Below are positions 18,651 through 23,166 of a DNA stretch of 64,000 bases, in pieces (positions within the stretch are counted from its first letter, which is position 1; each line of letters opens with the position of its first letter). Below the pieces are notes generated by a model that saw nothing but the letters and a program-made list of their open reading frames with translations, did no database searches and was not told the origin of the DNA. Position numbers and translations under genes: made by a program. Where the stretch lies: positions 62,001-126,000 of the forward strand of contig JACPUC010000030.1 in the NCBI GenBank assembly GCA_016192455.1, read 5' to 3'. The stretch comes from Candidatus Tectimicrobiota bacterium (GTDB lineage: Bacteria > JACPUC01).

Positions 18651-19079
18651 CTACGTGTTGGGCGTGATGCGGCGGGCAACGCGCGACAGCGGGTGGCCCT
18701 TGGCGCGGATGTCGAGGGTGTTGAACCAGCCGAACGGAGTACGGATGACGCGGCCGAGGTGAGGGGCAAGCTGCTCTTCCACCTCGGCCAGGAGGGCAAC
18801 GGCATCGGCGGGGCGGCTCAGCTCGCCGAAGAGGTGCGCGAACGGATGCAGGACGACGGTGTCGACCTTCAACTGCCGGGCCAGGCTGAGCACCTCCCCG
18901 GCGGTGCGCCGCGCCACGCCCTCGCGGTCGGTCTCGTCCCCCGCTTCGGCCGCGGCGAGCACCAGGAGCGCCTCGTCAACAGCCGTGACCGGATCGTCAA
19001 AGGCTTCGATGATCTTCGAGCGGCCGCGCTCGGTGATGACGCAGCGGAACGAGTCGACGTGCCAGATGAGGATACGCAC
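18651..19079 (-). CDS. Freestanding archaeal-type threonyl-tRNA synthetase editing domain
   Basis: 142-residue protein matching the editing domain that archaeal ThrRS enzymes carry at their N-terminus, here without any synthetase body. The match is continuous: RILIWHVDSFRC at the start, EALLVLAAAEAGDE, then VDTVVLHPFAHLFGELSRP, and TPFGWFNTLDIRAKGHPLSR at the end. In archaea the domain hydrolyses Ser-tRNA(Thr) and has the D-aminoacyl-tRNA deacylase fold. The start was placed at GTG 19079, where the homology begins; the frame is open upstream but that segment is low-complexity. Whether it edits tRNA in trans here is inference. Confidence 0.82.
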   Translation of the reverse strand: MRILIWHVDSFRCVITERGRSKIIEAFDDPVTAVDEALLVLAAAEAGDETDREGVARRTAGEVLSLARQLKVDTVVLHPFAHLFGELSRPADAVALLAEVEEQLAPHLGRVIRTPFGWFNTLDIRAKGHPLSRVARRITPNT

Positions 19080-19538
19080 GGAGTTCCGGAACACGGGGGC
19101 GAGGTTCCTCTCGCGTCCCGCGCCATGATGGGGCGCAGCAGCCCTGGTGGGATGGACTGCTTGGCGGTGAGGCGGGACCCCGGGGGGACGCGCCGCCGCT
19201 TGCCGCCGTTCGCCGTCGGCTGTCGCTGAGCCGCAGGCGGCTGCCGGCTCATCCCCAGGGTTTTCCGTACCAGAGATTGGGCTACCGCTTTCCTTGCCCA
19301 TCAAGACCGCGTGGGAGAGGGTGCGCCGCCCCGGAGAGCAGAACCGCCCGCCATGCGGTGCATGCCGGGCACTCAACGTTCTCGCGCCATCCTCGCGGCT
19401 CAGCAGGAAGCCTCTCTCCTTTCCAACGAGGCGCGCCGGCGCTTCACCCCTCGCCCGCGCCCCAGCCTTCCCCGCTGCCCTGCTGACGGCCGCTCAACGG
19501 GCCTCCGCCGCTCTGCCGGTCCTGCCTCCCCAGGCTTG
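19080..19538. other. Intergenic
   Basis: 459 bp between two minus-strand genes (DksA-like and the editing-domain protein). It includes the frame extension of the editing gene, which I do not consider coding. No hairpin with T-run or repeat noted. Confidence 0.4.
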
Positions 19539-22092: not shown

Positions 22093-22419
22093 GGTCTTCA
22101 ATCTCCCAATGGCGGGGCGCCCACGGGCGTAGGCGCCGATCAACGGCGTTGCACCTGTCGAACTATCACAAATCATGGCGTCCCTGGTCAAGGGGCTTGT
22201 TGCCGCCCCGCCGCTGTAAGGTTTCAGCGTGAAGAAAACCACCATGCTTGCGAACGGCGGCGAAGTACCTATAATGAGAGTACCTAGGTGCCGACAGAAG
22301 GCGGCGCGCTAAAGATTGTCCCTTCTGGCGGGTGCTTTGCCAGGTGAGGGTGCCGCATTCCTGAACGTACCCTGCCCTCCGGAGGGTGGTATGACAGCGG
22401 AGTGGTCGGGAGAGCCATC
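22093..22419. other. Divergent intergenic region
   Basis: Spacer between the divergent aryl-CoA ligase and MuF-like genes. It holds the plus-strand promoter described at 22248-22275 and the AGTACCT direct repeat around its -10 box. Confidence 0.5.
22248..22275 (+). promoter_or_regulatory. Sigma70-type promoter with repeated AGTACCT element
   Basis: TTGCGA (22248-22253), 16-bp spacer, consensus TATAAT (22270-22275), directing transcription toward the MuF-like gene. The heptamer AGTACCT occurs twice, starting in the spacer and again just after the -10 box, 15 bp apart; the second copy merges into the palindrome ACCTAGGT. This may be an operator. Confidence 0.6.
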
Positions 22420-23166
22420 ATGAGCTGGTTGCTCGTATTCATCCTTATGGGCATCGTCTTCCTCTACCTGCAGCAACGCCGCGCCGGCCACACGCTGCGG
22501 GCTTCGGAGCGCAGCGGGGAGTCGACCGCGACGCTCAATCCAGGGGTGGTGACCGGCATCGGTTCCAAGCGGGCCCCCGCCAGACAAGCGCAGGAGGAGG
22601 TGGCGGCGGAGGAGCACGTTGAGCTGGTGCGGATTAGCTGGGAATGGCCCACCTGCGAGCGCTGCAACCAGTTTCAGGGAAAGGTCTACGCCGCCAAGGG
22701 ACGGAGCCGCATTTACCAGTCCCTCGAAGAGCTGCCCGGCGGCGGGCCCCCCTTTCATCCTGAATGTCGCCACACGCTGAAACCGTTCTCGGAAAGCGAG
22801 GTGACGAAGGAGGAGCTGGAGCGCCTGCGCGCGGGGGCTCCGTTGCGCGAGCTGACGCGTGATGACCAGGGGCAGTATCGGCGCGAGAAGATCGAGCGCA
22901 TCCGCAAGGTGGAGTACGAGCAGCTCAGGATCGCGGAGGCCGAGAATAACACCTCCAAGGTGCTCCGCTCCCTGCTGCGGCTTGTTTCACGAGGCGCGGC
23001 GACCGCCGGGGACCTGAAGAAACTTGGCGATACGTACGAGCGCCTGGGCAAAATCTACACGGCACTGGAGGCCTGGAAACGAGCCCGCAGGCTCGATCGC
23101 ACGCTGCCCGGGGTGGAGATCAAGCTCAAGAAGTACGAGCAGTTGGAGGAGAAGGCACCCTCCTAA
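22420..23166 (+). CDS. Membrane-anchored protein with phage MuF-like minor-head motif
   Basis: 248-residue protein with one N-terminal transmembrane helix (SWLLVFILMGIVFLYLQQ) starting at an ATG with GGGAG upstream; a GTG 18 bp earlier is possible. Residues about 68-125 carry C-E-R-C (79-82), N-Q-F-Q-G-K-V-Y, then P-P-F-H-P-E-C-R-H (111-119). This Cys-pair, glycine, HPxCRH pattern is the C-terminal signature of phage Mu F-like minor capsid proteins. The C-terminal part is helical and TPR-like (KKLGDTYERLGKIYTALEAW). No phage genes are nearby. The fold may be a metal-binding hydrolase-like or structural module borrowed from phage; function unknown. Confidence 0.7.
   Translation: MSWLLVFILMGIVFLYLQQRRAGHTLRASERSGESTATLNPGVVTGIGSKRAPARQAQEEVAAEEHVELVRISWEWPTCERCNQFQGKVYAAKGRSRIYQSLEELPGGGPPFHPECRHTLKPFSESEVTKEELERLRAGAPLRELTRDDQGQYRREKIERIRKVEYEQLRIAEAENNTSKVLRSLLRLVSRGAATAGDLKKLGDTYERLGKIYTALEAWKRARRLDRTLPGVEIKLKKYEQLEEKAPS

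Follow-up and report, generated by a model that had tools for sequence, protein, structure and literature searches.

What might a free-standing editing domain of the archaeal threonyl-tRNA synthetase (ThrRS) type be doing in a bacterium whose own ThrRS carries an unrelated editing domain? The question is raised by one gene in a window of 64,000 nucleotides, by which we mean the whole stretch of DNA that was analysed, corresponding to bases 62001-126000 of contig C27 of a Candidatus Tectimicrobiota bacterium. This host genome (4.46 Mb, 31 contigs, 88% complete) is the sole representative of its phylum in our genome set. The gene and a possible extension of it are located as follows.

18651..19079, minus strand: stand-alone tRNA-Thr_ED (DTD-fold) protein P0002, 142 codons plus stop, GTG start at 19079, recognized by PF08915, AlphaFold and Foldseek
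19080..19094, minus strand: possible five-codon N-terminal extension of P0002 from an alternative in-frame GTG at 19094, suggested by reading the sequence

The last base of the stop codon lies at 18651. A start at the GTG of 19094 would give a protein of 147 amino acids and is preceded, 11 nt upstream, by GAGGA (19110-19106); the alignment of P0002 homologues begins at 19079, not at this alternative codon. The gene is flanked by a YceI-like gene on the opposite strand and by a DksA-type zinc-finger gene on the same strand. A role as a defence or phage gene was considered and rejected, since P0002 has no match in PADLOC at E<=0.1 and a single one in PHROG, at E 0.033.

The first-pass annotation had described the product as a free-standing archaeal ThrRS-type editing domain, and this description holds. 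P0002 matches PF08915 (tRNA-Thr_ED) over residues 2-138 of 142 (E 9.8e-31, 107.1 bits, cut-off 30.2), as do 52/52 members of alignment A4 at E<=0.001, and its frame ends with the domain, fusion to ThrRS or to the anticodon-binding domain of ThrRS being absent. The best sequence match in the PDB is the M. jannaschii ThrRS editing domain 4rrf (E 9.7e-24). An AlphaFold2 model built from a 52-row alignment (pLDDT 96.5, pTM 0.91) predicts the DTD-like fold seen in the P. abyssi NTD: in Foldseek, the editing domains of P. abyssi, M. jannaschii and A. pernix come first, the P. abyssi entries with a TM (query) of 0.91-0.96 and an rmsd of 1.0-1.6 A, followed by DTD-fold entries with a TM (query) of 0.57-0.69. 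No Pfam family besides PF08915 matches P0002 at E<=1, the DTD family PF02580 included, and the DTD Gly-Pro motif is absent, GHPLSR standing where DTD has its GPVT motif. DTD3 is TatD-like. The better match to DTD3-like families that would have spoken for another assignment was not found, PF08915 being the sole Pfam match at E<=1, and P0002 accordingly has no homology to TatD-type hydrolases at this level.

In the host genome, the P0002 gene is the only PF08915 match, and it is an extra gene, since the host also encodes a DTD and a ThrRS of the bacterial kind that bears the zinc-type editing motif. The single full copy of ThrRS comprises the tRNA_SAD domain (PF07973), the catalytic and anticodon-binding domains and an HxxxH...CxxxH zinc site; its best-scoring partner among 11 compared is the ThrRS of a Nitrospinota MAG (53% identity). 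The DTD is encoded by one separate gene. The statement that bacterial ThrRS has an unrelated editing domain of its own, so that redundancy or a new role is implied, therefore applies to this host. The zinc editing motif is present in the ThrRS of 11 of the 12 bacterial hosts checked (our host and 10 others), two of these 11 frames (G044 and G049) being cut by contig ends, and the remaining genome, G045, gave no ThrRS match at 1e-50. DTD was found in 11/11 bacterial hosts checked and in 0/3 archaea. Replacement of DTD by P0002 was rejected on the bacterial DTD count, and replacement of ThrRS editing was rejected for the 11 of 12 bacterial hosts whose ThrRS carries its own motif.

A scan of named genomes recovered relatives of P0002 in 13 MAGs, their best segments being 50-63% identical to P0002. 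These MAGs carry the labels Nitrospinota, Acetothermia, Deltaproteobacteria, Acidobacteria, Tectomicrobia, Phycisphaerae, Chloroflexi (two), Ktedonobacteria, Blastocatellia, Freyarchaeota, Jordarchaeia and Bathyarchaeota. Twelve are intact stand-alone frames, and that of Bathyarchaeota (L014, 6001-6443) is broken into two. Among stand-alone ('solo') domains, we distinguish type I, the kind of P0002 (n=48; RGRS, FGWFN and KGHPLSR), from a weaker kind, type II (n=59; FGYFLD or FGYLNEW with LAR or LAK). Type I spans several phyla of bacteria and also occurs in Asgard archaea. With A2, a subfamily profile based on type I (matches counted at E<=0.001), we obtained matches in 8/347 genomes of the phylum of G052 (2 type I, 6 weaker), 22/350 of that of G050 (20 type I, including one truncated at a contig end, 1 weaker and 1 canonical DTD), 39/345 of that of G043 (2 type I, 36 weaker and 1 genome with fused forms), 1/5 of that of G045, and 152/195 of that of G047, where the fused domain is common and 19 are type I. 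Of 41 genomes given as relatives of the host, three match PF08915: the host itself, G011 with a ThrRS-fused domain, and G013 with a weaker solo. In NCBIfam there is no dedicated model: this type of editing domain matches the threonine-tRNA ligase and Ser-tRNA(Thr) hydrolase models only partially and far under their cut-offs, and the five families that the 48 type I members match do not include a model of a P0002-type protein.

For comparison of residues, 134 domains were gathered from the loci fetched, of which two fragments shorter than 110 amino acids and L170 (a canonical DTD, 17 bits) were left out of the counts; this gave 115 solo domains (116 aligned less L170) and 16 fused ones (15 to ThrRS, 1 to CysRS). 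A frame of 774 amino acids around the domain in L088 was not accepted as a fusion because Pfam finds the editing domain alone. The fused Asgard domains used here, a part of those listed, are the 11 scoring best against the type I profile together with those of G047 and G048. As the sequences are related to each other and were collected with the type I profile, the residue counts are not independent, and solos with Glu at position 134 may be under-sampled.

Seven side chains of the P. abyssi domain come within 6 A of the bond to be cleaved, namely Pro80, Phe81, Ala82, His83, Tyr120, Lys121 and, from the other monomer, Glu134; those able to act chemically are His83, Tyr120, Lys121 and Glu134, and Glu134, which crosses from the partner subunit, holds the amino group of the substrate (passages of PMC4491819). 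P0002 keeps four of the seven (the equivalents of Pro80, Phe81, Ala82 and His83) and changes three, so that His83 alone remains of the four that could act chemically and the serine pocket of Ser-tRNA(Thr) editing has Phe, Asn and Arg in place of Tyr120, Lys121 and Glu134. The positions concerned, and a motif typical of type I, are the following.

19017..19028, minus strand: RGRS, residues 18-21 of P0002, with Arg20 and Ser21 in 48/48 type I
18834..18836, minus strand: His82 of P0002, equivalent by alignment to His83 of the P. abyssi NTD, present in 115/115 solo and 16/16 fused domains
18720..18725, minus strand: Phe119-Asn120 of P0002, replacing by alignment Tyr120-Lys121 of the P. abyssi NTD
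18681..18683, minus strand: Arg133 of P0002, replacing by alignment the cross-subunit Glu134 of the P. abyssi NTD

The catalytic residues thus gave a divided answer, with the histidine retained and the other three lost. These replacements are shared by most solos. Position 134 is Arg (71) or Lys (36) in 107/115, and none of these 107 keeps Tyr120 or Lys121; the other eight, all from Asgard archaea (L201-L208), keep Tyr120, Lys121 and Glu134 together. ThrRS-fused domains have Glu134 and Lys121 in 15/15 each; with the CysRS fusion included, Lys121 is found in 16/16, Tyr120 in 15/16 (Cys in L044) and Glu134 in 15/16 (Thr in the CysRS fusion). Within type I, in P0002 numbering, Phe119 and Arg133 occur in 48/48 and Asn120 in 38/48. 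Phe11 and Phe84 are as invariant (48/48) as Arg20 and Ser21; in the other two groups, some other residue is commoner at the positions of Arg20, Ser21 and Phe84. Type I also retains, as in ThrRS-type domains, the equivalents of Glu46, Asp49, His83 and Gly118 (48/48) and of Phe117 (47/48).

How such changes bear on activity can be judged from mutants. The catalytic group of the fold is the 2'-OH of tRNA A76; P. abyssi and A. pernix domains mutated at both Tyr120 and Glu134 continue to edit Ser-tRNA(Thr) while leaving Thr alone, and Glu135Ala in M. jannaschii abolishes activity (PMC4491819, in part). According to the same passages, His83 variants of one archaeal domain are inactive on Ser-tRNA(Thr) and those of another moderately active, and Lys121-to-Met is severely compromised in all three because the catalytic water moves, while an earlier study by the same group is cited for partial activity of a Lys121 variant, and DTD has Met at position 121.

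The Asgard archaea offer a natural control. The eight Tyr-Lys-Glu solos are each the sole A2 match in their genome (8/8), as expected if they stand in for a missing fused domain. By hand count, 15/19 Asgard type I genomes have a second A2 match (Fisher p 0.0002 against the Glu-type solos, for genomes that are related and MAGs that are incomplete); among the matches listed, this second match lies in a frame of ThrRS length in 3 of the 15 (G047, G048 and G1217). Asgard type II hosts have a second A2 match in 8 of the 15 fetched.

From the homology, the predicted fold, the conserved pocket changes and the co-existence with an editing ThrRS and a DTD, we infer, with moderate confidence, that P0002 is a free-standing, probably dimeric DTD-fold aminoacyl-tRNA deacylase, that is, a trans-editing factor, with a charge-reversed pocket and a substrate changed from Ser-tRNA(Thr). 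Its dimer would most likely take the 3' end of a charged tRNA, because the residues on the adenosine side and His83 are shared with the archaeal ThrRS NTD, and the tRNA's own 2'-OH would drive hydrolysis, as shown for archaeal NTDs. The concerted rewiring (Tyr120 to Phe, Lys121 to Asn, partner Glu134 to Arg) suggests that the acyl group is probably not L-serine on tRNA(Thr), and the exchange of Glu for Arg, one residue, hints at an acyl group that has no free positive alpha-amine or is negatively charged. The rewired family as a whole, with Arg or Lys at position 134, no Lys121, and His83 and the adenosine side kept, likely binds the ends of charged tRNAs and is unlikely to be tuned for L-serine. 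Judged by sequence, the proposal that P0002 edits Ser-tRNA(Thr) in trans is consequently not favoured, given that only His83 of the four chemically capable side chains is kept and that Lys121 is lost. Rewired solos could still edit serine: a pocket with altered side chains may keep its substrate, since Tyr120/Glu134 double mutants edit and a Lys121 variant is partly active, and P0002 may be active as such because the catalytic group belongs to the tRNA.

P0002 can be compared with several known systems. It resembles the archaeal ThrRS NTDs of P. abyssi, M. jannaschii and A. pernix in whole-length homology, a TM of about 0.9-0.95, and the presence of His83, Glu46, Asp49, Phe117-Gly118 and Gly-His-Pro. 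Unlike them, it is unfused and has Phe, Asn and Arg for Tyr120, Lys121 and Glu134; type I further differs in its fixed Arg20-Ser21 and Phe84, and its bacterial hosts have another ThrRS editing domain. In the two-protein ThrRS of Crenarchaeota, which Korencic reportedly described in 2004, editing takes place in trans, an activity that P0002 may share. The A. pernix ThrRS-2 has an anticodon-binding domain, which P0002 lacks (passages of PMC4491819). With DTD and ATD, P0002 shares the fold, the free-standing state and the absence of Lys at position 121; it differs from them in having no PF02580 match, no SQFTL or NxGPVT motif, and the lower TM (query) values given above. Stand-alone archaeal tRNA-Thr-ED proteins (in Ignicoccus, beside SepCysS, and L201-L208 in Asgard archaea) are free-standing like P0002, whereas the Asgard solos keep Tyr-Lys-Glu and are the sole A2 match per genome; the SepCysS-linked proteins are compared here through their printed descriptions (in parts of PMC5424206 and PMC8762117).

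Gene neighbourhoods were surveyed in a type I set of 35 loci, a type II set of 45 and 19 Asgard loci, clusters of at least four loci being summarized; the sets include L077 (a repeat of L012), L093, which is a type II locus, L014 and L092, which are broken or cut, and L170, a DTD. With neighbours named by eye, NrdR lies just upstream of the type I gene in five Chloroflexota loci, ArgRS upstream of it in three Acidobacteriota loci, and a cysteine-synthase-like gene beside it in two archaeal loci. Type II neighbours, also named by eye, are hotdog-thioesterase-like in 7, alpha/beta-hydrolase-like in 5 and universal-stress-protein-like in 6. In seven loci of the phylum of G043 (L134, L143, L145, L148, L149, L154 and L158), the type II gene directly follows a hotdog acyl-CoA thioesterase-like gene (by eye), with an overlap of a few bases in 6/7 and a pyruvate-kinase-like gene beyond on the other strand. 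Because neighbours differ between lineages and are not conserved, neighbourhood was rejected as a functional clue and no pathway is inferred.

Other explanations have to be weighed against a deacylase with a changed substrate. P0002 could be a back-up trans-editor of Ser-tRNA(Thr) whose pocket side chains drift because they are dispensable, a view in line with its fold and family, with the retained His83, and with the dispensability of Tyr120 and Glu134 in two archaeal domains. We nevertheless hold it to be unlikely: Lys121, whose Met variants are so severely compromised, occurs in 0/107 rewired solos, the M. jannaschii Glu135Ala variant lost activity, the changes are fixed rather than drifting, as the invariance of Phe119 and Arg133 in type I indicates, and the ThrRS of 11 of the 12 bacterial hosts checked carries an editing motif itself (mutants as in passages of PMC4491819). 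It is also conceivable that P0002 is not a deacylase at all: it might bind the end of a tRNA or a nucleotide without hydrolysing it, shield an ester bond, or have a small molecule as its target. The rewired pocket, neighbourhoods that give no pathway context, and the thioesterase-like gene adjoining some type II genes would fit such a role, yet the conservation of Glu46, Asp49, His83, Gly118 and Phe117 as in ThrRS-type domains argues for a preserved site and chemistry, and we judge this explanation quite improbable.

A function in cysteine charging, with P0002 proofreading Ser- or phosphoseryl-tRNA(Cys), would follow the example of tRNA-Thr-ED beside SepCysS and of ED-SepRS fusions (passages of PMC5424206 and PMC8762117); the CysRS-fused domain in L097 and the cysteine-synthase-like gene, named by eye, directly upstream in L008 and L009 point the same way. 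SepCysS, however, exceeds its cut-off in only 8 of the 57 genomes searched, all Asgard (6/19 type I hosts and 2/8 Glu-solo hosts), with 0/29 bacterial type I hosts and 0/1 Bathyarchaeota; in the host, whose genome is 88% complete, the best match reaches E 1.5e-6 and 28 bits against a cut-off of 365. The SepCysS link was therefore rejected for bacteria, and this system does not explain the P0002 gene. The printed ED-SepRS fusions are described as keeping the serine motif in full (part of PMC8762117), whereas P0002 does not keep it. On both grounds, we regard cysteine proofreading as very unlikely. Finally, the gene might be an archaeal contaminant or a very recent archaeal transfer, as the related solo genes in Asgard archaea and the broken relative in the Bathyarchaeota MAG (63% identity over the best segment) could suggest. 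It lies, however, on a long contig, its GC of 0.69 and GC3 of 0.89 are within the range of five neighbouring genes (0.59-0.70 and 0.71-0.93), the full-length relatives that rank best by E-value come from bacteria (61% identity), and type I is present in several bacterial phyla. Contamination is unlikely in view of the position on the contig, this composition, and the DksA-type and YceI-like neighbours, and an archaeal origin of this kind strikes us as scarcely credible.

Phylogeny against archaeal editing domains, which had been proposed as a check, gave no support to a recent transfer from an archaeal ThrRS, as P0002 falls outside the ThrRS-fused clade in our trees. A 102-row tree (every second type II row used) was calculated with columns 120, 121 and 134 removed; in it, a single switch between Arg/Lys and other residues at position 134 suffices, placed on the branch that separates the fused and Glu-solo rows from the rest (SH-aLRT 99). 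When a 71-row tree was rooted with 11 DTDs, the root fell among unresolved type I rows, and the grouping of all Arg/Lys rows in one clade could not be rejected (p-AU 0.238). Where drawn, the CysRS fusion is counted with the fused kind in the tree group tables and in the 'canon' set. A DTD profile matched sets of 12 sequences at E 5.7e-5 to 4.4e-4 for types I and II and at 0.011 to 0.028 for Tyr-Lys-Glu domains, sets of 6 at 2.6e-4 to 0.14 for type I and 0.0021 for one type II set, and an Asgard-only type I set at E 0.2; as these values scatter with set size and with the Asgard-only set, closeness to DTD is not relied on. Tentatively, the stand-alone charge-reversed proteins may form a distinct and widespread class of DTD-fold trans-deacylases that act on their own substrate, its acyl group lacking a free alpha-amine or being negatively charged. 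Instead of being escaped archaeal domains, they may represent the older stock that supplied archaeal ThrRS with its editing domain; we find this extended reading as a whole possible but doubtful. What seems probable is the narrower statement that P0002 belongs to a separate group of free-standing DTD-fold proteins with a rewired pocket, its substrate probably being an acyl-tRNA, rather than being an archaeal serine-editing domain acting in trans.

Passages of PMC5802732 describe the DTD-like fold as comprising DTD, ATD and the ThrRS NTD. Stand-alone archaeal editing domains are already in print: tRNA-Thr-ED genes beside archaeal SepCysS, one of them in Ignicoccus, are reported together with bacterial ED-SepRS fusions (passages of PMC5424206 and PMC8762117). 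Our literature search, through titles and abstracts with few subscription journals, found no description of bacterial stand-alone editing domains with a changed pocket, which is weak evidence of absence. The pocket side chains of the NTD are presented as strictly conserved yet dispensable, for a reason left open, and it is suggested that such a pocket barred rewiring of the active site, hence the absence of the fold from multiple functional contexts (passages of PMC4491819). A class with its own substrate, or an older stock, would if true contradict this suggestion. The 107 natural proteins in which the pocket residues are replaced in concert, with fold and His83 kept, make the question of conservation despite dispensability directly testable, and the rewired solos may point to a further trans-editing activity in many uncultivated lineages.

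Some observations were made along the way. We know of no CysRS with an editing domain, and in G781 a frame of 638 amino acids (L097:1501-3414) joins a ThrRS-type editing domain (residues 1-136), with Thr at position 134, to CysRS (TIGR00435 cysS, 539.7 bits, cut-off 340). The same genome encodes SepCysS (L253:341-1522, 412 bits, cut-off 365), after which, from 1728 onward, an editing domain is fused to an apparent SepRS start (by eye) interrupted by a run of N; this frame resembles the published ED-SepRS fusions as far as these are described in parts of PMC5424206 and PMC8762117. In L022 (G011), from the same domain as the host, a ThrRS with a fused PF08915 domain has no tRNA_SAD match. Type II Asgard proteins such as L210, L214 and L216 have Gly-Pro-Ser where the ThrRS type has Gly-His-Pro, which recalls the nearby Gly-Pro motif of DTD; Pro occupies this column in 13/59 type II rows. 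Elsewhere in the window, a 254-amino-acid frame on the plus strand (22402-23166) matches phage minor capsid protein 2 (PF06152, E 6.3e-9) amid ordinary chromosomal genes.
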